34,227 bases of DNA, from assembly GCF_015207035.1 (NCBI RefSeq), contig NZ_JADEXQ010000067.1:1-34227 (forward strand), in the 5' to 3' direction. The notes under the pieces are model-generated. The model was given only the letters and a program-made list of their open reading frames with translations. It was not told the origin of the DNA and did no database searches. The DNA is from Romeriopsis navalis LEGE 11480 (GTDB lineage: Bacteria > Cyanobacteriota > Cyanobacteriia > Leptolyngbyales > Leptolyngbyaceae). Shown here piece by piece: positions 4,217-33,900 of the stretch (its first letter is position 1; each line of letters starts with the position of its first letter). The position numbers and the translations under genes are program-made.

Positions 4217-4729
4217 TTAATGCCAGGCATGCCAAGCAATTGCACCACTTACACTGATGGCGCACAAGACCACACATGCGCCAATCGTCACTTGCATGCG
4301 TTGCAGTAATGGCTGCACTTCATACAGGGCAATCAAACGATCTTGATCAAGCATCTCGGGCTGCTTTTCCCAAACCTGGCCATCATACCAACCGGACTCT
4401 TCATACAGAATCTTGGTCGAAAACAGGCGCTTTTGAATGTAGGACCAACCCAAATACAATCGAATTACGGCTAGCACAGGAATAATGCAGGCCCCCCCCA
4501 TCGCCCAACCCGCAAACTCAATGGGATACTTCTGCGGCACAAAACTCGCCGCCGATACGGGCCCGGAAATCAGCCAACTGCTCAGCCACATTAAACCGAT
4601 CGGCTTGAAATACTCAAATGGCTCCAGCGTTCCCCACCGAAAATACCAAGAGTCCGCCAATGCCCGATATTCATTAATCGGCCGCTGTTCATCAGGCACA
4701 GGGCAAGGAGAGGAAGAGGAAGATTTCAT
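4217..4729 (-). CDS. CGLD27/Ycf36-like (DUF1230) membrane protein
   Basis: This 170-aa protein belongs to the CGLD27 family (DUF1230; plastid-encoded ycf36 in some algae), found in cyanobacteria and photosynthetic eukaryotes. The recognisable core runs CPVPDEQRPINEYRALADSW, then hydrophobic segments around SSWLISGPVSAASF and GGACIIPVLAVIRLYLGW. The conserved FYEESGWYDG-like motif follows (here YEESGWYDGQVWEK), then a C-terminal membrane helix. The family is membrane-associated and has been connected to iron and photosynthetic acclimation in plants; its molecular function is not established. I chose ATG 4729 because the family starts just before PVP-EQ-P-NEY. The open frame continues upstream to 4837, but that extension has no family resemblance. 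Confidence 0.82.
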   Translation of the reverse strand: MKSSSSSPCPVPDEQRPINEYRALADSWYFRWGTLEPFEYFKPIGLMWLSSWLISGPVSAASFVPQKYPIEFAGWAMGGACIIPVLAVIRLYLGWSYIQKRLFSTKILYEESGWYDGQVWEKQPEMLDQDRLIALYEVQPLLQRMQVTIGACVVLCAISVSGAIAWHAWH

Positions 4730-4872
4730 GCTATTTAACTCAGGGTTCCGCGTCGCACAATGACGACCGTTCCTCAGTATAACGGGATCAGCACAATAAG
4801 TTTTATGCGCCAAGCTTTGCTCAAGGATTAGGCTCAAACCAACATCGATCTACCGCTACACCAATCTCCCGG

Positions 4873-6420
4873 CTAAATATCGTCACCCGTGGATAGTCCC
4901 TTGGCAATCCGCGAGAGATCCGATCGTTCATCCACACCAACCCGTGTCGGCGAACCACTAATAATCCGCTCAAAGTTATGGAAGGAATCTTTAATCTCAG
5001 GGCCACTCGCGCTGATGCTGTATTCTCGGATGCCCTTATCATGCCAAGAACCACGCATTTTGAACACATTCAAGGCGCGGGACATCTCACCGCGAATCTC
5101 AACGTATTGCAGCATCAAAATCGTGTCCGTAATCGTTGAGATATGCGAGTCTGTGATCGAATGTGACCCCATAAACTGATCCGTGGTGTTGGTGAAAAAG
5201 CCGGTGATTTCTTCTTGCTTCGCAAAACCGGTTGCACCAATGACAAACTGACGGAAGGCATTATTACTGACACCGCGGGCCAAGGCCGACAGCGAGTCGA
5301 TCGCGATCCGCGCCGGTTTGAAATCCGCAATTTCGGATTTAATAATCTGCAAGTGATCCTCAAGCCCCGCCGACTCAGGATAAGCGCAAATGATTTTCAA
5401 CAAACCCTGCTGCTCCAGTCCCTCAAAATCAATGCCCCAGGAAGAAGCGTTCCGCGACAACTGCGCCCGCGACTCCTCGTAAGCAAATAGGATAGCCCGC
5501 TCTCCCGCGACACAGGCTTCCTCAAGAAACTTACTGACGAGCATAGTTTTACCCGTACCAGTTGCGCCCGTTGCAAGAATGATTGAATCCTTGAAGAATC
5601 CACCGCCACACATGTCATCTAATCGATCGATCCCAGAAGATACACGTGTATTGGACGATCTCTGAGTGAGACGCATTGCCCCCAGCGGGAAGATATTGAC
5701 GCCCTGGGCCGAAGTAATCGTGAAGGGGTATTCCCCTTTCATATGGGTGGTGCCACGCAACTTGAGGATTTCGATCGTCCGCCGCCGGCGCTCACCCTCG
5801 AGCACATTCCGCACAATCACGACATTATCCGCCACAAATTCTTCGACGCCAAACCGCGCCACTGGACCATATTCATCCAGCCGCTCGGTTGTGATCACAG
5901 TGGTGACCCCAATCAACTTCAAACGCGCCGTTAAACGCAGAATTTCACGCCGCACCAGTGACGCTGAATCATATTGCTGAAACAGCGCAGTCACCGAATC
6001 CACTGAAACCCGCTTTGCCTTATACTTCCCGATTGCGTACTGGATCCGCTCAATCAAAGCCGAAAAATCAAAGTTACCTACAACTTCCTGTCCCTCGGGA
6101 TCAGGCGAAGCATCGAGGATAAATAACTGACCATCGTCGATCAGCTGCTGCAAGTCCCAACCGAAACTAACAGCATTCTTGATGATATCGGCGGAAGTTT
6201 CTTCAAACGTGATGAAGATACCCGGCTCGTCAAAATGTTGAATACCGTTATACAAGAATTGGATTGCGAGGAGCGTTTTACCCGTACCGGACGTTCCACT
6301 GACCAAAGTTGTTCGACCGGCTGGTAAGCCACCATGACTAATGTCATCGAAGCCTTCGATTACAGTCCGAACTTTCTGTACGCCGATAGCGCGTGATTCT
6401 GCGTTACTCTTCGATTCCAT
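4873..6420 (-). CDS. kaiC: Circadian clock ATPase/kinase KaiC
   Basis: KaiC is the core of the cyanobacterial oscillator, a hexameric double-RecA ATPase that autophosphorylates and autodephosphorylates over about 24 h. Both halves are complete. CI has Walker A GTSGTGKT at residues 42-49 and the catalytic glutamate pair in ITFEET (73-74). CII has Walker A GATGTGKT near 284-291. The phosphorylation motif ITDSHIST is intact, placing the Ser/Thr pair near 427/428, homologous to S431/T432 of the Synechococcus protein. The length of 515 aa against 519 is explained by a four-residue shorter N-terminus. The C-terminal tail, used by KaiA, is present. The gene is last in kaiA-kaiB-kaiC order, 344 nt after kaiB, so it may have its own promoter. 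The start is an ATG at 6420. Confidence 0.98.
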   Translation of the reverse strand: MESKSNAESRAIGVQKVRTVIEGFDDISHGGLPAGRTTLVSGTSGTGKTLLAIQFLYNGIQHFDEPGIFITFEETSADIIKNAVSFGWDLQQLIDDGQLFILDASPDPEGQEVVGNFDFSALIERIQYAIGKYKAKRVSVDSVTALFQQYDSASLVRREILRLTARLKLIGVTTVITTERLDEYGPVARFGVEEFVADNVVIVRNVLEGERRRRTIEILKLRGTTHMKGEYPFTITSAQGVNIFPLGAMRLTQRSSNTRVSSGIDRLDDMCGGGFFKDSIILATGATGTGKTMLVSKFLEEACVAGERAILFAYEESRAQLSRNASSWGIDFEGLEQQGLLKIICAYPESAGLEDHLQIIKSEIADFKPARIAIDSLSALARGVSNNAFRQFVIGATGFAKQEEITGFFTNTTDQFMGSHSITDSHISTITDTILMLQYVEIRGEMSRALNVFKMRGSWHDKGIREYSISASGPEIKDSFHNFERIISGSPTRVGVDERSDLSRIAKGLSTGDDI

Positions 6421-6764: not shown

Positions 6765-7085
6765 TTATTCCGGCGATGTCAGGCGATTATCCTGGAGTTC
6801 TTCGTAAAGTAAGTCGAGGCCGACCAATACACGCTCGCGATCGGACAGATCACCGATAATTTTCCGCACCGGTGGTGGCAAAATTTTGGACAGCGTTGGG
6901 GTCGCCAAAATTTTATCTTCTTCGGCCAACTGTGGATTTTTCAAGACATCAATCACCTTCAGCGCATAAACGCCGTGGAATTCCTCTTCCAGGATCGTAT
7001 TTAAGGTTCTCAATGCACGAACTGAGTTCGGCGTATTCCCAGCCACGTAAAGCTTGAGAATATAGGTTTTTTTCGCGGTTTTCAT
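6765..7085 (-). CDS. kaiB: Circadian clock protein KaiB
   Basis: KaiB (106 aa) is the small fold-switching thioredoxin-like protein. It binds phosphorylated KaiC in the evening and sequesters KaiA. Its sequence is canonical: [20 protein letters not shown] at the N-terminus, the strictly conserved [19 protein letters not shown] in the middle and [20 protein letters not shown] towards the C-terminus, followed by an acidic tail. It is not one of the longer divergent KaiB2/KaiB3 paralogues. It lies 242 nt after kaiA and 344 nt before kaiC on the same strand. The start is the ATG at 7085. Confidence 0.98.
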
Positions 7086-7327: not shown

Positions 7328-8239
7328 TTACTGATTTTCAGGGGCTTCCCGAGGAATCGAACGACGATACATCTCGCAGAGATGCGCCAGCGTATCAATC
7401 AGGGTTAAACGATAATCCAATAGGATGTCCTCACCCCTGCCCTCTAATTTTAATTGTTTGGCGAACTGATCAATTAAATCCATATGAATTTCTACAACTT
7501 TCGCCACCGACAGGTCAGCGAAAAAGACGGTATTCACGAAGGCGTCGAGCTTATCGTTATTGGTCGGGTCATCCAGAAAGTAGGTAACGATAATGTCACG
7601 GTAAGAAGCCTTTAGTTCTTTTAAGAATTGCGCCCGCTCCGCCGCATCCATTTCGCGGGCAAAATTGTTCGGATCTCGTTTGTAATACACGCCTAAGTAG
7701 CCAAGTCGTTCTTTCAGTTTACTGGCTAGACGCTGTTGTTGTTGACGCAAAAGATTCTGGGCCGCGGCTTTTTCATTATCTGTGGATCCGGCAGCTTGGG
7801 GTGAGCGATGCCCCTCAACCGCACAGAGCGGGGATAGCTCTAAAAAGTCTTGCATGGCTTGATCAATCGCCGCGCCGATCGAATCGATCGGCGCAATCGG
7901 CAAGTAAACTTCAGCGGCATGGTAGCGCAGAGGCGAAATTGGCTGCTCATCGAGATCGCGCTGAGGGTGCAAAACCAGTGCCGGCAAGAGAATTGCCTGC
8001 TCCTGTAAAAAACTAATCATTGTTGGCAAGCGCGCTTCTTCATACAAAATCAGACAATCAATTTGCTGATGTTCGCGCTGAATTGCTGCCAAAAAATCGG
8101 ACTGTGATCGAAACAGTCGGACATCATAACGCTGCCGCTCTAAATATTGCTGCAATACCTGCGCAACATCATCTGTACTGGTGAATACGCAAATCAACAA
8201 ACGTTCATTGGCTGGCGTAACAGAGGATTGAACAAGCAC
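7328..8239 (-). CDS. kaiA: Circadian clock protein KaiA
   Basis: KaiA stimulates KaiC autophosphorylation by binding its C-terminal peptide. The C-terminal four-helix KaiC-binding domain is unmistakable: KERLGYLGVYYKRDP, FFADLSVAKVVEIHMDLIDQFAKQL, then GRGEDILLDYRLTLID and AHLCEMYRRSIPRE. The N-terminal half is the divergent pseudo-receiver domain (from LLICVFTSTDD onward). The open frame extends to a TTG at 8302, but a perfect TATAAT -10 box on the minus strand (8312-8317) ends only nine bases before that TTG. A transcript starting there would be almost leaderless. I therefore prefer the GTG at 8239 (about 303 aa); a TTG at 8200 would give a length closer to known KaiA (about 284 aa). Divergent from the hybrid kinase gene. 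Confidence 0.93.
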   Translation of the reverse strand: MLVQSSVTPANERLLICVFTSTDDVAQVLQQYLERQRYDVRLFRSQSDFLAAIQREHQQIDCLILYEEARLPTMISFLQEQAILLPALVLHPQRDLDEQPISPLRYHAAEVYLPIAPIDSIGAAIDQAMQDFLELSPLCAVEGHRSPQAAGSTDNEKAAAQNLLRQQQQRLASKLKERLGYLGVYYKRDPNNFAREMDAAERAQFLKELKASYRDIIVTYFLDDPTNNDKLDAFVNTVFFADLSVAKVVEIHMDLIDQFAKQLKLEGRGEDILLDYRLTLIDTLAHLCEMYRRSIPREAPENQ

Positions 8240-8311
8240 AACGTATGGGGAATTTGCAAGGGGATAAATCGACAATTGAGGATTACACGTTTGTGTAATC
8301 AAGCTGAAGTC

Positions 8312-8317
8312 ATTATA
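8312..8317 (-). promoter_or_regulatory. Predicted -10 box of kaiA promoter
   Basis: The minus strand reads TATAAT, an exact -10 consensus, about 73 bp upstream of the preferred GTG start. The -35 region at the usual distance is weak (around CTGTTG). Transcription would start near 8304-8306. No other exact TATAAT facing kaiA was noticed in this 91-bp divergent spacer. Confidence 0.45.
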
Positions 8318-8340
8318 ACGAGTTACCGGCTGCTCAACAG

Positions 8341-8369
8341 TTGACCACCATAATAGGTAGAGCGATAAC
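8341..8369 (+). promoter_or_regulatory. Predicted promoter of the hybrid histidine kinase gene
   Basis: TTGACC (8341-8346) and GATAAC (8364-8369) are separated by 17 bp, matching the -35 consensus at 5 of 6 and the -10 consensus at 4 of 6. The resulting 5' UTR would be roughly 18 nt. The site lies back to back with the predicted kaiA promoter, so one bound regulator could affect both genes. Confidence 0.4.
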
Positions 8370-8393
8370 CACCGATGGCAGCGAGGCTCTTCA

Positions 8394-10796
8394 ATGGCTG
8401 CATCTACAGTCTATCTTCAGGCATTTCAAGAAATGGTGGCGATCGGTCAACTCACCGATACGGTTGAAACGATCGCCCAGAAGTTTTGCGAAACCTTAAG
8501 CCATCGTCTACTCGTATTGAATGACAACCAACCGACGGGCGTCATTTATCTACCCAAATTGTTGCCCTATCTGCTGAGTAATCACCCACAACAGGTGCCA
8601 ATTAGCAGCATTCAGCCCAGCCTGATTGACCCCTTACCACTTGGGATCGATCACCCCACGGAGATCACTTCAACGATGTCCCAAGACTTAGCCGCCCGGA
8701 ATGCTGATCTGACTCAGCTTAATCGACTCAAAGATGAATTTCTCGCCTGCGTCACCCATGAACTCCGGAGTCCCCTGACCGCAGTCTTAGGATTGTCCAC
8801 CTTACTTAAGGATCAATCCCTGGGTCCGCTCAACGATCGCCAACTGCGGTATGCCCGACTGATTTATAACAGTGGCCGGCATTTGATCAGCATTACCAAC
8901 GACATGCTGGATTTGACCCGGATTGAGACCAACCAACTTGACATGAACTTTGGGACGGTCAATATTTCACAAGTTTGTCGCAATGCCTTTGAACAAGCGC
9001 GACAGTTACGACGGCTCGAAGATAATCATGTACCCCACCAAACGCCCAGCAATGACTTAGTCAAACCCCTAAATCCCAACTTGAATAGCGAGGACCTTGA
9101 TTTACCGCCATTTAACTTGGAAGTTGCACCGGATTTAGTCAATATCACGGCCGACGAAACACGATTGCGGCAGATGTTGGTGAATCTGCTATCGAATGCC
9201 ATGAAGTTCACCGAGAACGACGGGAGCCTCGGTCTCCGGGTGAATCGCTGGGAAGGCTGGATTGCATTTACGGTATGGGATACTGGCATCGGCATCCCAC
9301 CGGATAAACAACATCTGATTTTTCAAAAATTTCAGCAATTAGAAAGCACGATGACCCGTCAGTTTGAAGGCACGGGCTTAGGCTTGGTTTTGACCATGCG
9401 CCTGGCCCACTTACATGGTGGCGACATTACATTTACATCGCAAGAGCATCACGGTAGCCAATTCACCTTACTCCTGCCCCCAGAGCCACCCCAATCAATT
9501 TCCCAAAACCATCCGCCGCACCCCACGACAACCAGCAGTCGGGCCAATAGTAATAACAATCCGGCATTGGCCTCACGCTTAGCCTTAGTAATCGATGCCA
9601 GTTCCCACAACTTAGAAGACTTACGCGCCCATTTGACGGAATTAGGTTATCGGATTGCGGTCGCCCGCTCCGGCCCTGATGCCTTAACGAAAGTCCGCCA
9701 ACTGCAACCCAGCGTCGTGTTCTTAAATCCCGTCTTACCAATCCTGTCGGGTTGGGATGTGCTCACACTGCTGAAAGCCAACAGCCAAACCAAATCAATT
9801 CCCGTGATCGTCACCGGGTCGAATAACGATCGATCGACGGCCCAACAGCTACAGGCAGACGATTTTCTTAATTTTCCGATCTTGCACCATCGGCTGGAAG
9901 CCTTACTCGAAAAACTCCACAGCGCGATCGCGACAGAGCGTATCCATGCGCATAAGCCCCATGTGATCATCTACCTGAGTCCCGCTGAAGCCGATGCGGA
10001 CAGTACACGCACGCTGAAAATTAATCATCTCCTGCATCAATATAATTTCCGGGTATTAGAGTCTCATAACTTAGAGCAGGCCGAACTATTAGCGAAAGTC
10101 TGGAAAGCGCAAGTTGTTGTCTTAAATCAAATCCCTGCCTGCCCCTCCAGTTATTTAAGCCAATTTATTGAACAGCCGTATCTTGCTTCCTTACCGCTGA
10201 TTACGCTGGATGAAGCTACGACTCAAGTCGCGAATCAAATGCCCGATTTGGCCGTATTCCCCTGCCTTGTGGAATGGGATAATCCGACCCAGCGCGAGCG
10301 CACGATTCGGATTGCGCCAGAAGCCTTTACCGAAAATTTGTTGAAGGCGGTTGAAGTGGCGATCGGGTTTGCGGGCCGTCCTTTAATTCTGGCAACGGAT
10401 GTTGACCAATGGCAAGCATCCCCGCCCAACACTCGCCATGATTGGCTTAATGCCTTGGCACAGTACGTTCAAGCGGCCGGATTGCGCTGTAGCGTGGGTC
10501 GATCACTGACGGATATTTTGCATACCTTGGAAACACAGAGTGTTGATTTATTGCTCCTCCATTGGAATCAGGATCAAACGGCGCTCCAACAAACCATTAA
10601 GAGTTTGAAGTCGCTGCAAGCCGAACAACAAAGATTGCCCGCCACAATTCTGATTAACTCCGAGGAAAACCCCAATGAAATTCCGACGGCTTTACGGCGC
10701 ACACTTGACCAACTGCAAATCACGATCGTCAACTCCAGTGAATCAATGGATGATTTGCTCAGCCAAATTCGCCAAGTTCTGGGGATCGCCAATTAA
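8394..10796 (+). CDS. Soluble hybrid histidine kinase with degenerate C-terminal receiver domains
   Basis: The 800-aa protein has no membrane segment. Residues 1-100 match nothing I recognise. The HisKA motif FLACVTHELRSPL carries the phospho-acceptor His at about 122. The HATPase_c domain has its N-box (LLSNAMKF, about 265-272), DTGIG (296-300) and GTGLG (326-330), so kinase activity is expected. A roughly 35-residue hydrophilic insertion (about 208-243) separates the two. After a Pro/Ser/Asn-rich linker comes a receiver-like domain (about 395-508) whose phospho-acceptor Asp is Asn 445 (FLNPVLP) and whose conserved Lys is Phe 494 (NFPI). Two further alpha/beta segments, about 523-630 and 672-800, look like still more diverged receivers. 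The gene is divergent from kaiA with a 91-bp gap, suggesting but not proving a clock link. The start ATG has only a weak ribosome site. Confidence 0.85.
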   Translation: MAASTVYLQAFQEMVAIGQLTDTVETIAQKFCETLSHRLLVLNDNQPTGVIYLPKLLPYLLSNHPQQVPISSIQPSLIDPLPLGIDHPTEITSTMSQDLAARNADLTQLNRLKDEFLACVTHELRSPLTAVLGLSTLLKDQSLGPLNDRQLRYARLIYNSGRHLISITNDMLDLTRIETNQLDMNFGTVNISQVCRNAFEQARQLRRLEDNHVPHQTPSNDLVKPLNPNLNSEDLDLPPFNLEVAPDLVNITADETRLRQMLVNLLSNAMKFTENDGSLGLRVNRWEGWIAFTVWDTGIGIPPDKQHLIFQKFQQLESTMTRQFEGTGLGLVLTMRLAHLHGGDITFTSQEHHGSQFTLLLPPEPPQSISQNHPPHPTTTSSRANSNNNPALASRLALVIDASSHNLEDLRAHLTELGYRIAVARSGPDALTKVRQLQPSVVFLNPVLPILSGWDVLTLLKANSQTKSIPVIVTGSNNDRSTAQQLQADDFLNFPILHHRLEALLEKLHSAIATERIHAHKPHVIIYLSPAEADADSTRTLKINHLLHQYNFRVLESHNLEQAELLAKVWKAQVVVLNQIPACPSSYLSQFIEQPYLASLPLITLDEATTQVANQMPDLAVFPCLVEWDNPTQRERTIRIAPEAFTENLLKAVEVAIGFAGRPLILATDVDQWQASPPNTRHDWLNALAQYVQAAGLRCSVGRSLTDILHTLETQSVDLLLLHWNQDQTALQQTIKSLKSLQAEQQRLPATILINSEENPNEIPTALRRTLDQLQITIVNSSESMDDLLSQIRQVLGIAN

Positions 10797-11522: not shown

Positions 11523-12818
11523 ATGCCCGAACCCACTAGCACCGCCAAAAATCCCTTTACCGTTGGTCGCCCGGTCAGTTCTGATCGATTCATCGGCCGC
11601 GCGAGCGAAATCGCCACCGCCCTCGACCAAATTATCAGCCGGGGACATTTGGCCCTCTGGGGCGGTCCCGGCGTTGGCAAAACCTCACTACTCAACCTCT
11701 TGAGCCAACCGCATCAATGGCAAGTTCGCGGCTATGACCCAACGGGTGCGGTCTTTATTCAGCTAAGCTGCCTCGGGATCAGCCCATTTCGAGCAAGTGA
11801 ATTCTGGCGCGAAATCCTGCAACAGCTACACGACTTAGTCGATCCGCAAATTCAAGCAACGATCGCGCCCAAGCTGATGGAAGCGCATCCCGGCAAGGAA
11901 GATTTACGATCGGTGCTGCGACTGCTCGGACGGAAAAAGCAATATCTTGTCTTAATGATTGACGATTACGATGCCGCATTACAGACTTCGCCGCACTACA
12001 GTGCCGCCGAGATGGCAACACTCGTCAGTGATTGTCGGAATCTTTGCTCCCATTCCGTCGAGCGGGCTTACTTATCGATGGTGATTACCTCGTTGCGCCG
12101 CTTGAACGAGCTTGGTCCGAAACTCCAACCCGGCAGCTCACCTTGGTACAACCACTATTTATTTCTACCGCTCAAACCCTTTAGTGATAGTGATGTCATG
12201 GCTTTGATGGCCGGACTGCCGATCACCCCTGCCCTGCGCGATGGGATTCGGGAAATGTCCGATGGTCACCCTGCCCTCTTACAAAATGCCGGACATCTGC
12301 TCTACCGCGAACTGCGATCAGGCAATGTACCGGACCTCATTTCCTTTGCTCAGGATTTCCAAACGGCCACGACACATCTGTTTGAAGCCCAGTGGAATAT
12401 TGCCAATGAAATTGAACAAACACTGATGATGCTAATTGCCCTGATGAATCTTCAGGGGCGACTACAAGGGAAAGTCTATGACATGGGCGATTTACCCGTG
12501 GTGTTTAGCCAAAAGGAACGGGAACTCTTGAACTTAGTTGACCAAGGTGTGCTGGTGCAACGCGGTCGATCGGGGGAACTCAACTTTGCCTTTGCCTCTT
12601 CCATGCTGGAATGGTGGGTTGTCGAGGAACTCGAAAACAGTAGCGAAACCTGGCTGACCGAAAGACAACGCATCTTTCTCAACCTCATGAGCCATCGCCA
12701 AGCGCAAATCGTTACCACCGCCATCCACTGGCTATGGCAAAACAAAGACGAATTGCCCTCCATCATTGAATGGTTAGCGAAGGTTTCTTCCGCCTTCCCA
12801 AAGGGTCTGATACCCTGA
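11523..12818 (+). CDS. STAND/AAA-type ATPase, first of a tandem pair
   Basis: This is a cytoplasmic P-loop ATPase of 431 aa. The N-terminus carries the motif NPFTVGRPVSSDRFIGR, a header seen before the P-loop of many cyanobacterial STAND-like ATPases. Walker A GGPGVGKT is at 47-54, Walker B LMIDDYD at 144-150, and sensor-like VITSLRRL follows. The C-terminal third looks like winged-helix sequence (QKERELLNLVDQGVLVQRG) ending in a short helical region. No separate effector domain is seen. The downstream neighbour has the same header and the same P-loop position, so the two are tandem paralogues 76 nt apart and probably cotranscribed. Such ATPases act as signalling switches or defence regulators in characterised cases, but this one's job is unknown. 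Confidence 0.75.
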   Translation: MPEPTSTAKNPFTVGRPVSSDRFIGRASEIATALDQIISRGHLALWGGPGVGKTSLLNLLSQPHQWQVRGYDPTGAVFIQLSCLGISPFRASEFWREILQQLHDLVDPQIQATIAPKLMEAHPGKEDLRSVLRLLGRKKQYLVLMIDDYDAALQTSPHYSAAEMATLVSDCRNLCSHSVERAYLSMVITSLRRLNELGPKLQPGSSPWYNHYLFLPLKPFSDSDVMALMAGLPITPALRDGIREMSDGHPALLQNAGHLLYRELRSGNVPDLISFAQDFQTATTHLFEAQWNIANEIEQTLMMLIALMNLQGRLQGKVYDMGDLPVVFSQKERELLNLVDQGVLVQRGRSGELNFAFASSMLEWWVVEELENSSETWLTERQRIFLNLMSHRQAQIVTTAIHWLWQNKDELPSIIEWLAKVSSAFPKGLIP

Positions 12819-12894: not shown

Positions 12895-14580
12895 ATGGTG
12901 ATGATCGCGAGTCGCAAAAATCCTTATATCATTGGTCGTCCGGTCAGTGAATCCGATCGGTTTTTCGATCGGGAGAATTTGTTTGGGTTTCTGACGGACA
13001 CCTTACCCCAAGCACAAGTCATCTTGCTCCACGGCCAGCGACGCATTGGCAAATCGTCTGTCCTCACGCAAATCCCCCATCAGCTGGCCGAGGAACCCTA
13101 CCAGTTTGTGGTGCTTTCGCTCGAAGGTAAAAGCCAAGATCCATTGGCCAAAGTCCTGCATGACTTAGCAATCGATATCCAAGCTGACCTGAACTTTCCC
13201 GTTAATGTTCCAAGCGTTGCAACATTGTCAGCAAACCCGGACGAGTTTGCCGATCACTTTCTGGTCGAAGTCCAAAATCATATTCAGGCACTGCACGCGG
13301 AGCATCGGTTAGTGCTGCTATTTGACGAGTTCGACACGTTAGGAAACTATCATCCCGATGCCGCTGCGACACATCTGTTTCCCTACTTAAATCGCGTGAT
13401 TGAACGCCATCGATTTCTCCATGTAATTCCAGTAATTGGCCGACGCCTCAAGGATCTACCCACCTTACTTGGTCTGTTTCGCAACGCACCGACGTTCGAA
13501 ATTGGGCTAATTAATCAGCGCGACACCTACGAACTGATTATGCAGCCGAGTCGCGAAGTGATTTTCTATGAAGACAGTGCCCTTGAAGCGATTTGGCAAC
13601 TCACCGCCGGACACCCTTATTTCACCCAAGTCATCTGTTTCGCAATTTTTTCCCAAGCCCGTGAAGATGACTGGTGGCAAATCACGGACATCGACGTCGA
13701 ACGAGCTGTCGAACGGGCGATCGAGCTGGGCGAAGGGGGCTTAGCCTGGTTCTGGGATGGCTTGCCAATTGCCGAGCGGGTCTTTTTCTCTGCCACCGCC
13801 GAAGTCGCAGAAATGCGACTTAAGGAAGGGCAAACCGTCGAGGTCAAAGAAGGCGATCCCCTCGCACTGCTCGAAGACTCCGGCGTGATGCTGACCGATT
13901 GCCTTCATAATGCCCAACGCAACTTGCTGGAATGGCGCTATCTCACCCAAATTAAACGGGTCACTGCCGCGGAAACCGTGGCCCGCAGTACGTATCAAAT
14001 CACGATCGAGCTCGTCCGCCGCTGGCTGATCCGGCGACATGGGATCAAGCAGGAAATTTGGGAATTACAAGAGCTGGAACCCGACGTCAAACCCGACTAC
14101 GAAAATGGCCGGGAATTGCGGCAGCAACGCTCGTTCTATCAAGCTATCCTCGCGTATGAAAAAGTGCTGCTGAGTAATCCGAACCACATCAGCGCCCTGT
14201 TTGAGCTCGCCGAATGTTTACTCGCGACTCAGGCCTACAGCCGGGCGATCGAGCTATTTGAACGCGCCTACCAAGTGGATCTACTCCGCGCCCTCGACGG
14301 CTTGGTCCGAGCACACCTCGGCTATGCCAAAATCCTCATCGATCGCGACCAACTCGTCGAAGCCGAGCAATCCCTCGACACGGTCGAAAACCTCAATTCA
14401 CAGCCCGAGGTCACGGCAAAATTACGCCAGACAATTCAAGCCAAACGGGCGACGCCAAAACGCCATGAGAAATCCTGGGGAAGATTTATCACCGATTTAC
14501 GCTGGAATCTGCTTGGCGGGAATCCCAAATCGACAGAAAACCCCGATCAAGAGTCCCGCGATTCTGATCACCCCAGCTAA
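12895..14580 (+). CDS. STAND/AAA-type ATPase with C-terminal TPR-like region, second of a tandem pair
   Basis: The 561-aa protein opens with NPYIIGRPVSESDRFFDRE, matching the header of the gene before it. Walker A is GQRRIGKS at 47-54, the same residues as in its neighbour, and Walker B LLFDEFD is at 141-147. The middle (AIWQLTAGHPYFTQVICF onward) resembles the winged-helix part of orc1/cdc6-like bacterial ATPases. From about residue 390, TPR-like helices appear (REQ-rich SFYQAILAYEKVLLSNPNHISALFE, then AIELFERAYQVD), which suits protein binding. The last 40 residues are polar. A GGGAG ribosome site (12879-12883) lies 11 nt before ATG 12895; ATG 12901 is an alternative. Tandem duplicates that diverged in their C-termini suggest a two-component ATPase switch, which is my inference. 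Confidence 0.75.
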   Translation: MVMIASRKNPYIIGRPVSESDRFFDRENLFGFLTDTLPQAQVILLHGQRRIGKSSVLTQIPHQLAEEPYQFVVLSLEGKSQDPLAKVLHDLAIDIQADLNFPVNVPSVATLSANPDEFADHFLVEVQNHIQALHAEHRLVLLFDEFDTLGNYHPDAAATHLFPYLNRVIERHRFLHVIPVIGRRLKDLPTLLGLFRNAPTFEIGLINQRDTYELIMQPSREVIFYEDSALEAIWQLTAGHPYFTQVICFAIFSQAREDDWWQITDIDVERAVERAIELGEGGLAWFWDGLPIAERVFFSATAEVAEMRLKEGQTVEVKEGDPLALLEDSGVMLTDCLHNAQRNLLEWRYLTQIKRVTAAETVARSTYQITIELVRRWLIRRHGIKQEIWELQELEPDVKPDYENGRELRQQRSFYQAILAYEKVLLSNPNHISALFELAECLLATQAYSRAIELFERAYQVDLLRALDGLVRAHLGYAKILIDRDQLVEAEQSLDTVENLNSQPEVTAKLRQTIQAKRATPKRHEKSWGRFITDLRWNLLGGNPKSTENPDQESRDSDHPS

Positions 14581-25424: not shown

Positions 25425-26786
25425 TTACACAATTTTGCGGAGCGCCGCCATCACATCGGCCACATTACTCAGGCGATCGTCGATCTGTGGTTGCGTCAAC
25501 TTGTAAATTAGATCAGCCAGCTCCGACTGAATCCCAGGAATTGACTGCGGATCAAACCGCACCCCTTCCGGCTGCTGTTTATAAAAATATTTCGGCGACT
25601 TGCCGGTGAGGAGGAACGCTAAAGTGATGCCAATCGCATAGAGATCAGCCGCCGCGCTCACTTTCCCTTGCTGCTGTTCTGGCGCGAGATAGCTGGTTGG
25701 ATTAAATCCACCGGACTGCTGCCAATTCCAGACCCGCACTGTGCCAAAATCCGTTAGCACTAAAGATTGACCGGAACGCAGTATCGATCGCTTGATCACA
25801 TGATTCGGGGTGATGTGGCCATGCACCAGCCCTTGCGGATGCATCACCGCTAACGTCTCACACAGCTCTAGCATCCAAGCAACGGCTTCACGTTGGGGCA
25901 AAGGCCCCGACTGGGCAACATACTGCGATAAGGTCTGGCCATAGACCATTTCCATCGCCATATAGGTCTTGCCATCTTGCTCAATCACTTCCAAGACCCG
26001 TGGGATGCCCGGATGATTCAGCTGCTGAAGCTGCTCTGCCAGTTGACGAAAACGCTCAGCCGCCACAATTTCCGAAGCCATTTGGGCATTGAGGTTTTTC
26101 AATACCATTGTTCGTCCGAGCCGCCAGGCCAACGACGTCACTGCCGTTTCACCTTGGCCGAGCAACTTAACGACCTGGTAATCGCCCAAACTACTCAGCA
26201 CCTTCAGTGGCTGACCGGTTTGCGTGGAAAATAGCAACTCTGAATTTTGCCCCGCCGGTTCATCCGGCACATCATCGCCCATTGCCGTTTTCGACAGCGC
26301 TAACTTCGTCGGTGGCGCAATAATCCCTGGATCCGCACCAGGCAATCCCAGGGTCTGGGGCATATCATCATCCACCGCCATAGGAATCCGATTCGTCGGC
26401 TTCGGGGTTGATTTGATCGTGGCCGCCACACCTTCTACCACGCCCAAATGCACCTGCAAATTTGGGCCGGATCGCGCCAACCGGAAAATCAGGCCATCAT
26501 GCAAGGGCATCCGCACCACTCGTTTGCCATCGATATAGGTGCCATTGGCGCCAAGACTCACCACTTCCCACTGCCCATCATCACAGCGCAGCTCAACGTG
26601 ATTCCGAGAAACCACAGCACTGTAGAGCACGACATGATTATCAGTGGAGCGACCCACACGAATCACTTCACCATCATCAAACGTCCAGCTTTGCACGGGC
26701 GTTGACTGAATTGGATGTAGCAGGGTGAGAGTAATCACAGAAGTAGAGGCGGCCGATGAGGGTGGCTGAGAGGATTGAAGGAGCAT
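25425..26786 (-). CDS. FHA domain protein with catalytically degenerate protein kinase domain
   Basis: The 453-aa protein has an N-terminal FHA domain (about 40-115) with VGRSTDNHV, VVSRNHVEL and GANGTYIDGKRV, so phospho-threonine binding is expected. A Pro/Asp-rich linker leads to a Ser/Thr-kinase-like fold from about 203. The glycine loop (LLGQGETAV) and the Lys in TMVLKNL (K230) are present. The catalytic loop reads HGHITPNH at 322-329 instead of HRDIKPSN, so Arg, Asp, Lys and Asn are all replaced, while DFG (346-348) and APE (368-370) remain. It should bind nucleotide but probably not phosphorylate. It lies 202 nt downstream of the FHA zinc-ribbon gene on the same strand. Confidence 0.85.
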   Translation of the reverse strand: MLLQSSQPPSSAASTSVITLTLLHPIQSTPVQSWTFDDGEVIRVGRSTDNHVVLYSAVVSRNHVELRCDDGQWEVVSLGANGTYIDGKRVVRMPLHDGLIFRLARSGPNLQVHLGVVEGVAATIKSTPKPTNRIPMAVDDDMPQTLGLPGADPGIIAPPTKLALSKTAMGDDVPDEPAGQNSELLFSTQTGQPLKVLSSLGDYQVVKLLGQGETAVTSLAWRLGRTMVLKNLNAQMASEIVAAERFRQLAEQLQQLNHPGIPRVLEVIEQDGKTYMAMEMVYGQTLSQYVAQSGPLPQREAVAWMLELCETLAVMHPQGLVHGHITPNHVIKRSILRSGQSLVLTDFGTVRVWNWQQSGGFNPTSYLAPEQQQGKVSAAADLYAIGITLAFLLTGKSPKYFYKQQPEGVRFDPQSIPGIQSELADLIYKLTQPQIDDRLSNVADVMAALRKIV

Positions 26787-26988
26787 CCTAAAACGCGAGT
26801 AAGGAATAAAGAATATACAAGCTAGCCTGGCAATTGACTGCCCTTATCTATATAAGAAGCCCCATTCTGGGATGAAAGTGACTATATTTAAGGAAAATTA
26901 CCATGACTTTGAGTTTGATACACAAAGCACTGACATTAATGCAAATTCCGCCCTTAGCATCCTCACATTTCAAACGAATGCAGCAGAA

Positions 26989-27672
26989 TTAGCACTGAAA
27001 CAAAAACGAGACCTTATCACCTTTACCAAAGGCAATCCGGTCGCCCGGACGGAGTCGATGCCGACTCCCCACGGCAAGGGGTGCGTTATTCACATACGTA
27101 CCATTGGAACTCCCGACATCTTCAATATAATAGGCATCGCCTTCAACCCGAATATCGGCGTGAATTCGCGACACAATTTCGGAATTGGGATAACCCGCTA
27201 AATCAATATCCGGCGGAATCCGATCGTTCGGTTTGCCCATGTGAATGACATCCAAACCCGGGGTCAACTCGATCGTCGTCTTAGTCTGCACATGCAACAG
27301 CTTTGCGGTGGGCACCTGTAACTGCGTCGAACCCACGGGCTGACCGACTGCGGCTGGCTGCGTAGCGGCTTTTGGCGCACTGGTCGGAGTCAGTCCTAAG
27401 GTCGCACCTGCCGGGGGACGGGCCTCGGGGACCGGCACCACCGGTGGCGGAATTTCAACCGGGTCGAAGGATTCGAGCGGCTCAAGTTCTACCGGCGTCA
27501 CCGATTCACTGACTTGTAAATTGAATCCACATTGACCGCAAAACACGGCGTCAGACTGATTATTCGCGCCGCAGTTAGGACATTGAGTCATGGCTGGTAG
27601 TGGGGTGTAACAGGCTTCACATTGCACCGCACCAAGTGGATTTTGGTGCTCGCAGTTCGGACAGACAATCAT
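26989..27672 (-). CDS. Double zinc-ribbon protein with C-terminal FHA domain
   Basis: The 227-aa protein begins with two Cys4 zinc ribbons (C4, C7, C18, C21 and C31, C34, C45, C48). A roughly 85-residue Pro/Ala/Val-rich linker follows, then an FHA domain (about 140-225) with HMGKPNDRI, IVSRIHADI and DVGSSNGTYVNN, all key phosphopeptide residues kept. It probably binds phosphorylated Ser/Thr-kinase substrates and a second partner through the ribbons. Its ATG overlaps the stop of the upstream 6-phosphogluconolactonase gene in ATGA, so the two are translationally coupled. Confidence 0.85.
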   Translation of the reverse strand: MIVCPNCEHQNPLGAVQCEACYTPLPAMTQCPNCGANNQSDAVFCGQCGFNLQVSESVTPVELEPLESFDPVEIPPPVVPVPEARPPAGATLGLTPTSAPKAATQPAAVGQPVGSTQLQVPTAKLLHVQTKTTIELTPGLDVIHMGKPNDRIPPDIDLAGYPNSEIVSRIHADIRVEGDAYYIEDVGSSNGTYVNNAPLAVGSRHRLRPGDRIAFGKGDKVSFLFQC

Positions 27673-28442
27673 GATGGACGATATGGATAAAGCAGCTCTA
27701 TATTGTTTGGTATTCCCCCAGCAGCAGCTTGATCAAGCAACCAAATTAAATTATTTGCCGGTGATCGAATCAATCGTGATGGGTAAGCCAAGTCATCCGC
27801 CACCGGGGCAAATATTTGACTCAGTGCCGTTTGCTTGTTCGCACCGGCCACCATAAATAGAATTAATCGAGCGTGGTTAATCACGGGCACTGTCAGCGTA
27901 ATCCGGGGTTCACCGGCCTTTTCGCCCACTGTCACTAGACGATCGGAAACTTTCAGCGCCGCTGTACCGGGAAATAAAGAAGCCGTATGACCATCATCTC
28001 CCATGCCTAATAGCATCACATCAAATTGCGGAAATTCCTGGGGAGAACACTGAAAGAATTGTTGCAATTCTTGTGCGTATTGTTGCGCTGACACTACTGG
28101 ATCCGTGTCAGCAGTTGGGATGGGATGGATATTCGCCGCAGGGAAATCGACGCGATCGAGCCAGGCTAACCGCGACATCAAATAGTTACTGTCGGGATGA
28201 TCGGGGGCGACGTAGCGCTCATCGCCCCAAAATATATGCACTTTGTCCCAAGGTAAGTCGGCTTGTGCTAAACGCTCATATAAGGGTTTCGGAGTACTGC
28301 CACCCGATAAGGCGATGGTGGCCTGGCCCCGATCGGTAATGGCCTGCTGCAACATTTGCAATACATGCTCATAGGCGCGATCGACCAGCGATGATTTATC
28401 CGATAAGACTTCGATGATGGGCGGGGCAGCTTCCACAGTCAT
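27669..28442 (-). CDS. pgl: 6-phosphogluconolactonase
   Basis: Pgl hydrolyses 6-phosphogluconolactone in the oxidative pentose phosphate pathway, which supplies NADPH in the dark in cyanobacteria. The 257-aa protein is a full-length DevB-type enzyme with IALSGGSTPKPLYERLA, the VHIFWGDERYVAPDHPDSNY block, LLGMGDDGHTASLFPG and LTVPVINHARLILFMVAG. It is cytoplasmic. A CRP-like palindrome lies 64-79 bp upstream of the ATG. The gene ends by overlapping the start of the FHA zinc-ribbon gene by 4 nt, an unusual partner for a central metabolic enzyme. Confidence 0.95.
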   Translation of the reverse strand: MTVEAAPPIIEVLSDKSSLVDRAYEHVLQMLQQAITDRGQATIALSGGSTPKPLYERLAQADLPWDKVHIFWGDERYVAPDHPDSNYLMSRLAWLDRVDFPAANIHPIPTADTDPVVSAQQYAQELQQFFQCSPQEFPQFDVMLLGMGDDGHTASLFPGTAALKVSDRLVTVGEKAGEPRITLTVPVINHARLILFMVAGANKQTALSQIFAPVADDLAYPSRLIRSPANNLIWLLDQAAAGGIPNNIELLYPYRPS

Positions 28443-28505
28443 GCTGATCTTGGCTCATACTTGTAAGTTACATTTGTCAGGATAATCGAGCCAGCTGAAT
28501 TTAGT

Positions 28506-28521
28506 TGAGATGTACATCACA
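28506..28521 (-). promoter_or_regulatory. CRP-family (SYCRP1-like) binding site candidate upstream of pgl
   Basis: Read on the minus strand the site is TGTGATGTACATCTCA. It matches the CRP/SYCRP1 half sites TGTGA and TCACA at 9 of 10 positions with the standard 6-bp spacer, and the inner 10 bp GATGTACATC is a perfect palindrome. It is centred about 71 bp upstream of the pgl ATG, suitable for a cAMP-responsive activator. This is sequence resemblance only. Confidence 0.5.
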
Positions 28522-28624
28522 ACTTCAGGATTCCCTTGGGATCAAGCAAATGCCGCCAGCTAGACGCACGCCCAGGCCCATCAATCGGCGATTCGCAGGT
28601 CGTCAAGCGGTGCGCCAAAGGGCG

Positions 28625-28795
28625 TTAATCATGCTCTGAGGTTTCTTCTTCGCGCTGACTTTCGGCCATCCCTTCTTTGAACCCACGCAGGGTTTTGCCG
28701 AAGGTACCGCCCAATTCCGGAAACTTCTTCGGGCCGAAGATAAGAACGGCGACGCCCAAGATAATTAAGACTTCTGGCCAACCTAGATTAAACAT
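28625..28795 (-). CDS. tatA: Sec-independent (Tat) translocase subunit TatA/E
   Basis: The 56-aa protein starts MFNLGWPEVLIILGVAVLIF, the membrane helix, followed by the family hinge GPKKFPELG and an amphipathic helix GTFGKTLRGFKEGM. A short acidic tail (REEETSEHD) completes the TatA/Hcf106 pattern. TatA forms the protein-conducting part of the twin-arginine pathway in the thylakoid and plasma membrane, exporting folded proteins. It is short compared with most cyanobacterial TatA proteins (roughly 55-115 aa). The start is ATG 28795. tatC is not in the window. Confidence 0.92.
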   Translation of the reverse strand: MFNLGWPEVLIILGVAVLIFGPKKFPELGGTFGKTLRGFKEGMAESQREEETSEHD

Positions 28796-28972
28796 GCCTG
28801 ATTCTTGATCTCCCGATTGCCTGTCTGTGTCTACAACCGATCGCTACAAGGCAACCGGATGGCTGACTCAATCATAAAGCGAGACTCGCGTTCAGCGGGG
28901 CAATTCTCTCGATCAGCGGCGCAAATTGATGATTAATTGCTGACGTGAGCCTGACCGTTAGGCGCATACGGC

Positions 28973-29028
28973 GCTAAGAGAACACAGCACTAAGACCATG
29001 CAGCACTAAGACCATACGCCACTAAGAC
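28973..29028. repeat. Four-copy 16-bp tandem repeat over the kinase stop codon
   Basis: The motif CTAAGA recurs with an exact 16-bp period: the copies of (A/G)CTAAG start at 28973, 28989, 29005 and 29021. The middle two units read ACTAAGACCATGCAGC and ACTAAGACCATACGCC; the first is diverged. The last copy supplies the TAG stop of the minus-strand kinase gene (29022-29024). A 16-bp period is not a multiple of three, so changes in copy number at the coding edge alter the reading frame. Confidence 0.75.
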
Positions 29029-29834
29029 AGGGCACCACGCGCCACTTCTGATTCCAACGCTTTGAGGGCTTCGGTGGCGGACTGGAGGCGGCGACCAACG
29101 CTAATCTCCGTCATCCAGTAGAGCCAGTCGGCAAAGGCCGGGCTGAGATCGGCTATCGCGTCGAGATCAAAGCGGGTGCCTTTGCGGGGAATGGTCGAAG
29201 GTTCTTGCCCGGTCACGAGGGTCATCAGGGTGGTGCCGAGGCTATAGAGATCCGATGAAATAATCGCCCGACCGCCAAATTGTTCGGGGGGCATGTAGCC
29301 GTAGGTCCCAACCATTGTGTAGGCGGAATTCTCTTGGTTCACCATCGTTTTGACGGAGCCAAAGTCGATGAGGTAGGGGCGCTTATCTAAGCCAATCACG
29401 ACATTGCTAGGTTTGATATCACGATGGATCACCGGGGTCATTTGGCTATGCAAATGCTCCAGAATTTTGAGCAGGACTTTGGCAATCTGCTTGGTTTCAT
29501 GTTCAGAGAAGGTGCGGCCCTGCTGGACGATCTCTTGCAAGGATTTGCCGGGCACGTATGCATGCACGAGGGCTAAGGCCTTCGCCGTGGGCAATTCTTG
29601 CTCAAAATAATCGACGTAGCGCGGAATGCAAGGATGATTCAAACTCTGAAGAATTTTAACTTCTCGCTCAAATAACCGTAGATCTTCCGCGGTCAGCAAA
29701 TCATCTTTAAATAACAGCTTAATTACGACTTGTTCCGCATTTTGTGTATCTCGGGCCAACAAAGTCCAGCGTCCAGCTTGTTTGCCAAGCTGTTTCTCGA
29801 CTTCATAGCGATTACCTAAAATTTGACCAGACAT
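29022..29834 (-). CDS. Eukaryotic-type serine/threonine protein kinase
   Basis: The 270-aa protein is a stand-alone kinase domain with no membrane anchor or sensor. The lysine in VVIKLL (K39), HRDIKPSN (137-144), LIDFGSVK (about 156-163) and the MPPEQFGGRA activation-segment end are all intact. Catalysis is therefore expected, unlike the FHA pseudokinase nearby. The sequence before the glycine loop (LGKQAGRWTLLARDT) is that of the bacterial Pkn2/Spk group. The gene ends inside a tandem repeat. Its start is ATG 29834, with pcyA divergent after 200 nt. Substrates are unknown, but the FHA proteins encoded 1.3 kb away are natural candidates for phospho-dependent partners. Confidence 0.92.
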   Translation of the reverse strand: MSGQILGNRYEVEKQLGKQAGRWTLLARDTQNAEQVVIKLLFKDDLLTAEDLRLFEREVKILQSLNHPCIPRYVDYFEQELPTAKALALVHAYVPGKSLQEIVQQGRTFSEHETKQIAKVLLKILEHLHSQMTPVIHRDIKPSNVVIGLDKRPYLIDFGSVKTMVNQENSAYTMVGTYGYMPPEQFGGRAIISSDLYSLGTTLMTLVTGQEPSTIPRKGTRFDLDAIADLSPAFADWLYWMTEISVGRRLQSATEALKALESEVARGALS

Positions 29835-30958: not shown

Positions 30959-33900
30959 ATGTTCTTTGAAAGTTTGATGACGCTGACTGGAGTTGAGCTG
31001 GGAAAGTTTGTGCTGACGCAAATCCTGAAGCTAGGAACGGCGGCGTTAGAAGATTATGTCAAGGATTTCTTTAAGGATTCAATTAAAGGCAGCATCCCAA
31101 AAGCCAAAATTGATGTCATCGCCAAGCCAATGGCGGAGGCGATCGGTTATTTCATTAAGGAATTTATCGCTGAACTCAAGGCGAATGATGTTGAGCAACC
31201 CAGTATTAATCATCAGTATCAACCGGCACTGAAAAAGCTGGTGAAGGATAAGCGCATTGCCGCCATCTTGGGTACGGCGTTTGAGCGGGATTGCGAGGTG
31301 ATCGACTACCAGCAGATACGACAACTTTGGAAAACTGAATATGAGCCGGATGGGGCAATGTTCCCAGAAGATTTTCGGTGGCGACGATTATCGACGAAAT
31401 ATATTGCGGGGGTCGTTGCGATTGTTCAGGCGGATGCCACACTGCGAGGGATTCTGAATTTAGAGATTCAGACGAATATTGAAGCGGCAGCACAGCAAAT
31501 TGCTGGACCAAAGGTCACGTTCAATCTGGACAGTTATCGGGAGTCGGTGCTGAAGCAGTATGGGTATTTGCAGTTGGAGAGTTTGGGGAGTGCCAAGTAT
31601 GAGCAGGGCGGGGCGAATTATCGCAATGTCTCGCTGTGGCAGATTTTTGTGGGGCAGAGTGTACGGGAATGCCAGGAGTATATGCCGCCGCAGTCCTATG
31701 AGATCCCCAAGGAACAACTGAAGCTGCTACAGGCGGCGGGGGAGATTGAAAAAATTGAGGAGCTGGAGGCGGAGCAGCAGCGGGGACGGTATTTTCAGCA
31801 GCCGATTCGATCCGTGCTGGAAGTGCTGGGGGTGCGGGAAGCAACGACGGTGGTGCAGCCGTTGCAGCAGTATTCGGTGATTCTGGGTGATCCGGGGGCG
31901 GGGAAATCGACGTTGTTACGGTATCTAGCGGTGCGCTGGGCGGCAGGGGACGAGCTGACGCAGATGCCGCTGATTATTGAGCTGCGGAGCTATATCCAGA
32001 GTAAGCAGGCGGGAGAATGTCAGGATTTTCTGGAGTTTGTGCATCGGGGATGCAACTGGGTCGGGCATCTGGACCAGCTTGAGCTTGAGCGGTGGCTGGA
32101 TGCGGGGAAGGTGCTGGTGATGTTTGATGGGTTGGATGAGGTGGTGGATCGTCAGCAACGGGGCACGGTGCTGAAGCAGATTCATAGCTTTACGCAGCGG
32201 TATAGTCGGGTGCCGGTGATTGTGACTTCGCGGGTGATTGGGTATCAGGCGCAGGCACTGCGGGATGCAGGGTTTCAGCATTTTATGTTGCAGGATCTGG
32301 ACGGAGAACAGATTCAGGATTTTGTGGAGCGGTGGCATGGGCTGACTTACTCGAATGCGTCAGATCGAGAGCATAAGCAGGCAAGGCTGGAGCGGGCGAT
32401 TCGGGACTCGAAGGCGATTCAGGAGTTGGCGGGGAATCCGCTGCTGCTGACTTTGATGGCAATTTTGAATCGAGGGGAGGAGCTGCCGAGGGATCGGGCA
32501 CGGCTGTATGAGAAAGCGGGGGAGGTGCTGCTGTATCAGTGGGATGTGGAGGCGAAGCTGCTGGAGTCGCCGAGGCTGGAGAAGTATCAGGTGGAGATCG
32601 ACTACCAGGATAAGAAGGCCATGCTGCAACGGGTGGCTTACTTTATGCAGGCAAATGCGAAGGGGCTGGCGGGGAATTTTATCCAGCGGGAGGATCTAGA
32701 GCAGTGTCTAGTGGATTATCTGAAGACGCAGAGGGATGCGCAGAATGCGCCGAGCATTGCGAAGCTGATGATTGAGCAGTTGCGGGAACGGAATTTTGTG
32801 CTGTGTCACTTGGGGGCGGATGCCTATGCGTTTGTGCATCGGACATTTCTGGAGTATTTCTGTGCGACGGAGATTGTGCGGCGGTTTGGCAAGCGGGGGA
32901 CGGCGGATAAAGGGCGGATTGAGTTTGAGCAGTTGCGAGATGAGGTGTTTGGGGAGCATTGGCAAGATGAAACTTGGCATGAGGTGCTGCGGTTGATCTG
33001 TGGGATGGTGGATGCGAATTTTGTGGGGCAGCTAGTGGAATTGTTGATGGAGCAGGAAATCAATGTCTATGAGCACCTAGATGAGAATGATCGATTAGAA
33101 AAGGAATTTCTTACTCACCTGTGTTTATCTGCTGACTTTATAGTAGAGGTGCGAGAGTCAAGTGGATTACAGCAGACCAGATTTAAGCTACTTCGCCAAC
33201 TTAAGGAGTTTGCAGAACAGGAATATCCATTTCGGTTTGACCGAGCTACTGCTGCTGCTGCACTTCAGGCCATCACAAAAATATGGCTAGCGGACCATGA
33301 ACTAATTAACTGGCTAGAAAAGTGCACCGATTTTGGTCCAGCATCTTATTTACCAGAAGGCGCAATCACTACAATCACTGATATTGAGCAACCAAACTTG
33401 CACCGCAATCAATGGCTCAAAGACCGCACTCAAAATAATTATAATTGGGCGGTTCGCCAAGTCGCCGTTCAAACACTCGCGCGCGGTTGGAAAGATGAAC
33501 CAGACACACTCAGCTGGCTCAAAAATCGCGCTCAAAACGATGACAATTACATGGTCAGACTGACCGCCGTTCGAGAACTTGTGCGCGGCTGGAAAAATGA
33601 ACCAGACACATTCAGCTGGCTCAAAAATCGCGCTCAAAACGATGATGATGACGTGGTCAAACTGACCGCCGTTCGAGAACTCGCGCGCGGTTGGAAAGAT
33701 GAACCAGATACACTAAGCATTCTCAAAGACCGCGCTCAAAACGATGATAATTACACGGTCAGACTTACCGCCATTCAAGAACTTGCGCGCGGCTGGAAAG
33801 ACCATCCTAGTTTATTGATTTTTTTTCTCAATCGTGGCGTCCAAGATCAATTCGAGTCGAAGCTTGGTTTTAAGATGATCTGTGATGGAACTGATAATCC

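Follow-up and report, generated by a model that had tools for sequence, protein, structure and literature searches.

A hybrid histidine kinase with a conserved pseudo-receiver encoded beside kaiA, a candidate part of the cyanobacterial circadian clock

INTRODUCTION

The clock-associated kinase SasA has a KaiB-like N-terminal domain. The input of light, energy and redox state to the clock is known mainly from S. elongatus, where it involves KaiA, CikA and LdpA, according to the accessible part of PMC13421787. The pseudo-receivers of CikA and KaiA were reported to dock or bind ligand, and that of ShkA from Caulobacter to control its own kinase part (PMC12632262, accessible part). In a Cyanothece model Pex was missing and unknown alternatives were inferred (PMC3549803), a Crocosphaera preprint stated that a sensor with the role of CikA was yet to be identified (PMC12265555), and in a Nostoc punctiforme study alternatives were sought among 12 GAF-plus-kinase genes (PMC12691664), in each case as far as the accessible text goes.

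Here, a stretch of 34,227 nucleotides from Romeriopsis navalis LEGE 11480 (contig NZ_JADEXQ010000067.1, positions 1 to 34,227 of the forward strand; hereafter the window) was analysed, in which a hybrid histidine kinase gene lies beside kaiA. This KaiA-linked kinase is a strong candidate component of the bacterial circadian clock that seems not to have been studied. The initial annotation of the window had suggested that an undescribed clock kinase may be encoded here, which agrees with the literature searched, where no functional paper was found; most subscription journals lay outside the search. In Anabaena PCC 7120, the gene next to kaiA (alr2884) is presumably all2883. In the accessible parts of the papers concerned, alr2884 is given as kaiA (PMC8064755) and all2883 appears among the kinases with a predicted CRP site (PMC2633013, the only paper with this tag in the literature searched). 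A kaiA-linked kinase is not named in the accessible text of PMC8113500, PMC5520375, PMC3549803, PMC13421787, PMC12265555 or PMC12691664.

RESULTS

Organization of the locus

The kinase gene in the window is divergent from kaiA, and kaiB and then kaiC lie beyond kaiA:

8394..10796, + strand: KaiA-linked hybrid histidine kinase gene, 800 aa (ATG start; GAGG 7 nt before the ATG)
8303..8393, no strand: 91-bp gap separating the start codons of the divergent kaiA and kinase genes
7328..8302, − strand: kaiA, 324-aa frame from TTG (Pfam KaiA 2.5e-59, KaiA_N 1.7e-34)
6765..7085, − strand: kaiB (profile matches)
4873..6420, − strand: kaiC (profile matches)

It had been suggested initially that the two divergent genes share a 91-bp promoter region. 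The gap has this length if kaiA starts at the first in-frame TTG (8302), but a scan of 8150-8460 returned no sigma-70-like promoter, so that a promoter shared with kaiA is at most putative.

Several other genes were noted in the window. A CGLD27-like gene (4217-4837, − strand) follows directly after kaiC; no such gene was seen beside kai in the loci of 29 relatives or in the best 80 of 519 named loci. Two STAND-like ATPase genes (11523-12818 and 12895-14580, both + strand) have an N-terminal stretch in common (35% over 83 aa), the second one with TPR repeats, and the gene at 30959-34045 (+ strand) encodes an NNH2-NACHT-HEAT protein of 1028 aa, an architecture found among defence or signalling proteins. 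The cluster at 25425-29834 (− strand) holds an FHA protein kinase, a zinc-ribbon FHA protein, a second protein kinase and a protein of the glucosamine isomerase or 6-phosphogluconolactonase type.

The kinase is kept beside kaiA

In a first survey, which comprised the genome itself and 38 others, the best matches of 29 other genomes were obtained with flanks, and 26 of them adjoined kaiA-kaiB-kaiC. The exceptions were two copies away from kai (L043 and L058) and one cut by a contig end (L045); only weaker matches were found in 9 of the 38, outside the 29.

Among the 292 phylum genomes sampled, 79 were matched by a profile of the kinase C-terminus (E ≤ 1e-15) and 121 had a KaiA match, with 78 of the 79 kinase-bearing genomes having both. 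The two genes were divergent and within 8 kb in 70 of these 78, with 2.1-5.7 kb between the matched stretches, and the 70 pairs span 20 families, 31 of the pairs being in family f22. In the other 8 the kinase and kaiA lay on different contigs, and in none were they apart on one contig; the fetched DNA upstream of kaiA, read for 6 of the 8, did not contain the kinase. Of the 43 kaiA genomes that the profile did not match, 34 were inspected in the DNA preceding kaiA, which revealed 2 more kinase neighbours. The distance from the kinase start to the first matched KaiA residue was 62-724 bases in 23 relatives and 115-3248 bases in 20 further loci. Inserted frames were looked for in the fetched pairs among the 70, and in the widest pair (L211, genome G100) an ORF of 570 aa lies between the two genes.

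In a survey anchored on kai, the kinase was found upstream in 69 of the best 80 of 519 confirmed named kaiA loci, a sample which leans towards the relatives of the window since it is the best of the 519. The kinase was seen upstream of kaiA in, for example, a Trichodesmium erythraeum MAG, Microcoleus vaginatus HSN003 and Oscillatoria sp. PCC 10802. Among the 11 loci without it, 7 break off about 3.3 kb or less upstream of kaiA, unlike the other 4. As a control, window neighbours were searched for in the same best 80 of 519 loci at E ≤ 1e-10, a threshold that may miss short diverged genes. The kinase C-terminus was found in 68 loci, whereas six other neighbours were found in 0, 0, 0, 0, 0 and 6, the last being an ABC transporter ATPase of a common family. 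That the kinase is kept while the six others are not indicates that the pair is kept as a pair and not within a long conserved stretch. The neighbourhood is therefore conserved by both counts, 70 of 78 two-gene genomes and 69 of the best 80 of 519 kaiA loci, and a chance neighbourhood was rejected in view of the divergent pair in 70 of 78 genomes and the control neighbours that are not kept.

An intact kinase core followed by a pseudo-receiver

Alignments, Pfam and structural models divided the 800-aa protein of the window as follows:

8394..8579, + strand: CBS1-like half, aa 1-62, sensor remnant (alignment with orthologs)
8616..8678, + strand: gap site of the CBS2, coiled-coil and PAS-like domain, aa 75-95 (alignment with orthologs)
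8730..8930, + strand: HisKA, aa 113-179, with phospho-His122 (Pfam 7.6e-16)
9153..9485, + strand: HATPase_c, aa 254-364 (Pfam 3e-28)
9585..9902, + strand: REC1 pseudo-receiver, aa 398-503 (Pfam Response_reg 5.8e-15)
9726-9728 and 9873-9875, + strand: REC1 key residues Asn445 and Phe494
9960..10373, + strand: REC2, receiver-like, aa 523-660 (model topology, weak profile matches)
10383..10781, + strand: REC3, receiver-like, aa 664-796 (model, fold match to solved receivers)

All three Pfam domains (HisKA, HATPase_c and Response_reg) scored above their cut-offs. His122 and the N and G boxes were all in place, in line with the intact motifs of the initial annotation, and the protein has the phospho-histidine and the ATPase boxes that define a HisKA-type histidine kinase. 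In the alignment, both His122 and Asn268 of HATPase_c were kept in 69 of 69 named orthologs, which are the kinases adjoining kaiA among the best 80 of 519 confirmed kaiA loci. No Pfam family was over its cut-off in aa 510-800, and no DNA-binding domain was found by Pfam in the kinase.

The assignment of Asn445 and Phe494 to the places of the phospho-acceptor Asp and the invariant Lys of REC1 in the initial annotation was correct for both residues. Among the 69 named orthologs, the aligned acceptor site was Asn in 66, Ser in 2 and a gap in 1, and the Lys site was Leu in 62, Phe in 2, Val in 2, Gln in 1, Met in 1 and a gap in 1. With Asp in 0/69 and Lys in 0/69, these proteins are not hybrid kinases with a phosphorylatable first receiver. 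Of the acid pair, the first place was Glu in 66 and Asp in 3, and the second was Ala, Thr, Ser, Val or Gly. The mean column identity of REC1 was 72% in a 34-row alignment (the alignments for the REC profiles used 33 of the 69 named orthologs), and Asn was also present in 18 of 20 further kinase loci fetched from 12 families. The near-invariant Asn, with Lys never observed in the orthologs, indicates that REC1 is a pseudo-receiver by long-term selection, not by decay. Judged from these alignments, the first receiver-like domain is conserved in a non-phosphorylatable form. A decaying pseudogene was rejected, as the kinase motifs are intact and the REC1 Asn is preserved in relatives.

Two further receiver-like domains

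It had been proposed that two further diverged receivers follow REC1. The predicted structure of residues 512-800, for which the input alignment contained 48 of the 69 named orthologs, showed two successive (beta-alpha)5 domains with a pLDDT of 86 and a pTM of 0.79, and the fold was receiver-like, clearly for REC3 and less surely for REC2. REC3 (model residues 151-287) matched receivers such as KdpE in VIA-align with Z 14.0 at 2.4-2.5 Å over 117-118 residues; the matches listed cover REC3, and the structures of the CikA and KaiA pseudo-receivers are not among them, which is uninformative either way. For REC2, the evidence was weaker and came from topology and faint profile similarity: a profile of 34 sequences retrieved response regulators first from the structure bank, but with E 0.007 and worse. 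The acceptor position of REC2 is Asn578 in the window, and Asp (49) or Glu (17) in the 69 named orthologs, and REC2 has neither an acid pair nor a Lys of the usual kind. Comparison of the REC2 and REC3 profiles with that of REC1 gave E values of 0.0008 and 0.002, with probabilities of only 24% and 13%. The kinase classifies as a pseudo-receiver protein: REC1 scores above the Pfam cut-off but has neither the Asp nor the Lys, REC3 has a receiver fold, and REC2 is receiver-like in topology, with faint profile matches. According to Pfam and the model, the kinase carries three receiver-like domains, REC2 being less sure than REC3. Comparison of the REC1 and REC2 profiles with KaiA, with 17 of 24 KaiA rows used, revealed no special kinship.

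The sensor part is shortened in the window copy

The window copy is without the second CBS and the PAS-like domain of most relatives, and the alignment indicated that the loss was in frame. The N-terminal comparison used 26 of the 29 relatives, the split genes L046, L055 and L057 being left out, and one further alignment of relatives (A1) took in 23 of the 29. The frames are of 857-1281 aa in 66 of the 69 named orthologs versus 800 aa in the window. An N-terminal model of the Phormidesmis priestleyi ULC007 protein (L061) displayed a CBS pair (residues 17-140) followed by a helix and a PAS-like domain, and 24 of the 50 Foldseek matches listed for it name CBS domains in their titles. The remaining listed matches are proteins with CBS pairs (OpuCA, DarB, MgtE, CNNM, AMPK, AcuB etc.) or uncharacterised ones. 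Pfam CBS gave weak matches in 12 of 27 members, and also in 5 of 7 members from family f22; Pfam PAS was found in 1 of 27 members, the PAS-like assignment otherwise coming from the model topology.

In L061:7412-8644 and other named loci, the PAS-like domain has a C-x-C-x-C pattern and one Cys upstream. The four places were Cys in 40, 24, 37 and 44 of 51 sequences, none being invariant (51 of the 67 orthologs with a long N-terminus were aligned). As a guess from this pattern, the cysteines might form an iron-sulphur site or a thiol switch, a possible redox or metal site.

One orthologous family apart from SasA and CikA

In a tree of 64 kinase cores, which took in 12 of the 69 named orthologs, 48 orthologs, whether linked to kaiA or unlinked, formed one group (100/99), with 16 other kinases outside. 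The window kinase grouped with another shortened copy, L040, at 96/70, below the tree's mark of firm support. As far as can be told from sequence, the window gene is a member of a single family of orthologous hybrid histidine kinases in cyanobacteria. It has the features by which we delimit KaiA-linked kinases, i.e. divergence from kaiA, the REC1 Asn and a place in this tree group; exceptions are the 8 of 78 genomes with the genes on different contigs and 2 of 20 further loci without the REC1 Asn.

SasA is present separately in the genome (511 bits versus a cut-off of 342), and its model cut-off was passed in 139 of 292 phylum genomes. The window kinase reached 122 bits against the same model (NF006800, cut-off 342), best in the ATPase part, and KaiB itself matches the KaiB-like N-terminal part of this model. 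HrmK was the best NCBIfam model, an equivalog, and the score of 297 bits was below its cut-off of 725. A CikA-like kinase of the genome (L183; GAF-HisKA-HATPase, 741 aa) matched chains 5jyu and 2j48 with its C-terminus (E 3e-5 and 1.4e-4), PhoB receivers being slightly better; both chains are the CikA pseudo-receiver. GAF was not among the 14 families matched by 27 KaiA-linked members (E ≤ 0.1), nor was it found in 9 further members (E ≤ 0.01; 7 from f22), which are those scanned among the 20 additional loci. By this lack of GAF, and by a tree group of its own (100/99) that leaves the CikA-like L183, which represents CikA in the tree, outside, the kinase is set apart from CikA. A copy of CikA or SasA was rejected, given the failed SasA cut-off, the separate tree group and the separate presence of both in the genome. 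Because SasA and a CikA-like kinase are separate in the genome, the KaiA-linked kinase is an addition and not a substitute.

Genomes without the kinase and genomes with short KaiA

No such kinase was found in 41 of the 121 kaiA genomes (of the 43 lacking a profile match, 34 were covered by their upstream DNA). These include the small-genome family f2 and a genome of 2.8 Mb (G034) that we take to be S. elongatus-like. G286, a highly complete genome, had the kinase (L201, G286:C1:1391000-1398000) but gave no match to KaiA; in G191 and G293, of the same genus, the kinase and kaiA are on different contigs. Two of the kinases beside kaiA in the 20 further loci appeared degenerate, with HATPase_c weak or absent. 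L220 (G124) has Arg at the REC1 acceptor place and no Pfam receiver, in a poor alignment at 28% identity, and L221 (G106) has Asp there, in a poor alignment at 27% identity, and neither Pfam HATPase_c nor a Pfam receiver. The absence of a Pfam receiver from both indicates that the kinase family degenerates in places. In three genomes (G007, G009 and G030; L046, L057 and L055), the kinase beside kai was split over two frames, by pseudogene formation or assembly error. The gene is accessory to the clock at most.

All 31 sampled KaiA-bearing genomes of family f22, presumably Nostocaceae, had a short KaiA frame (111-205 aa), and the kinase was near kaiA in 31 of 31, e.g. in G068, G136 and G309 (L203, L205 and L206). 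Overall, the kinase was present in 32 of 34 genomes with short KaiA versus 48 of 83 with longer frames (Fisher 6e-5; 4 fragments left out), an association that cannot be separated from ancestry, as one family contributes 31 of the 34.

DISCUSSION

The best reading is that the gene encodes a clock-associated kinase whose pseudo-receivers serve as docking or ligand modules, to which we give a rough probability of 0.58. The KaiA-linked kinase would belong to the signalling layer of the clock, CikA-like in its working without being CikA. Its sensor part, with the CBS pair and the PAS-like domain, may read the intracellular state, probably adenylates and/or redox, and set kinase or phosphatase activity at His122. 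As REC1 is without an acceptor, the phosphoryl group would pass to a separate response regulator and not to REC1 itself, RpaA being the obvious candidate. By analogy, the pseudo-receivers might dock partners or bind ligands, a Kai protein being a plausible partner. The window copy, without most of the sensor, might be driven mainly through its pseudo-receivers or be constitutive; it is a poor member for tests of sensing and a good one for the pseudo-receivers alone. In the initial annotation, it was proposed that this may be a clock input or output kinase which binds KaiA, KaiB or KaiC, or a quinone, through its pseudo-receivers. This interpretation is partly supported: it withstood both conditions named there as refuting it, given the conserved kaiA neighbourhood and the receiver-like segments, and found no backing in profile kinship of REC1 or REC2 with KaiA.

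Other explanations of the linkage were weighed against this reading. The kinase might act at the output, as kinase or phosphatase on RpaA beside SasA and CikA, with its pseudo-receivers reading the oscillator, instead of serving as an input sensor. In the accessible parts of PMC12632262 and PMC13421787, RpaA was reported as a target of CikA and the CikA pseudo-receiver as its contact with KaiB, and the intact HisKA-HATPase core is compatible with such a role; but the large N-terminal sensor part of most relatives fits an input role, and the phosphotransfer helices differ by eye from those of the genome's own SasA and CikA-like kinase, so we consider an output function conceivable and unlikely. 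The divergent layout, with its short gap here and its linkage in many families, would also suit a sensor kinase that regulates kaiA or kaiBC transcription from the intergenic region through a response regulator, without contact with Kai proteins. Such a role appears distinctly improbable, as Pfam found no DNA-binding domain in the kinase and the gap varies widely in the distances given above. Lastly, gene order can persist by descent, and copies away from kaiA do exist (8 of 78 on different contigs; L043 and L058), as expected if the linkage were an inherited gene order functionally unrelated to the clock. This we hold to be very improbable, since the kinase is kept in 20 families while six other neighbours are not kept in the best 80 of 519 loci, and since just 1 of the 79 kinase-bearing genomes gave no kaiA match.

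A more specific form of the docking-module reading is that a further clock kinase feeds energy (CBS) and redox (the Cys-bearing PAS-like domain) into the Kai oscillator via Kai-binding pseudo-receivers and, in f22, supplies the KaiA pseudo-receiver function in trans. On the in-trans reading, the short f22 frame would leave no room for KaiA's own pseudo-receiver. This proposal is tentative and, in our estimation, doubtful; if it were true, a widespread clock kinase would exist beside SasA and CikA, although lacking in the single S. elongatus-like genome surveyed.

With its place beside kaiA in 20 families, the kinase offers a direct, testable candidate for the other clock factors that have been expected, and a threefold receiver-like array would be, as far as we know, a new layout for a clock protein. 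Because GAF was absent in all members scanned, KaiA-linked kinases would probably fail the GAF-plus-kinase filter described in the accessible text of PMC12691664.

Among known systems, SasA resembles the kinase as a clock-associated HisKA kinase of the same genome, and HrmK resembles it in the hybrid kinase layout. ShkA of Caulobacter is likewise a hybrid kinase with a pseudo-receiver, but its ligand is c-di-GMP, and we know of no tie of ShkA to a clock. The N-terminal pseudo-receiver of KaiA shares the receiver-like fold without an acceptor (PMC12632262, accessible part) and belongs to the same divergent gene pair, whereas KaiA has no kinase core and its profile kinship is not detectable. CikA and the KaiA-linked kinase both have a HisKA-HATPase core with a pseudo-receiver C-terminal to it, and by eye the acceptor position seems to be Asn in the genome's CikA-like kinase as well. 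In contrast, that kinase has a GAF domain and one C-terminal domain, whereas the KaiA-linked kinases carry as many as three receiver-like domains and, in the majority, a CBS pair and a PAS-like part, and lie beside kaiA.
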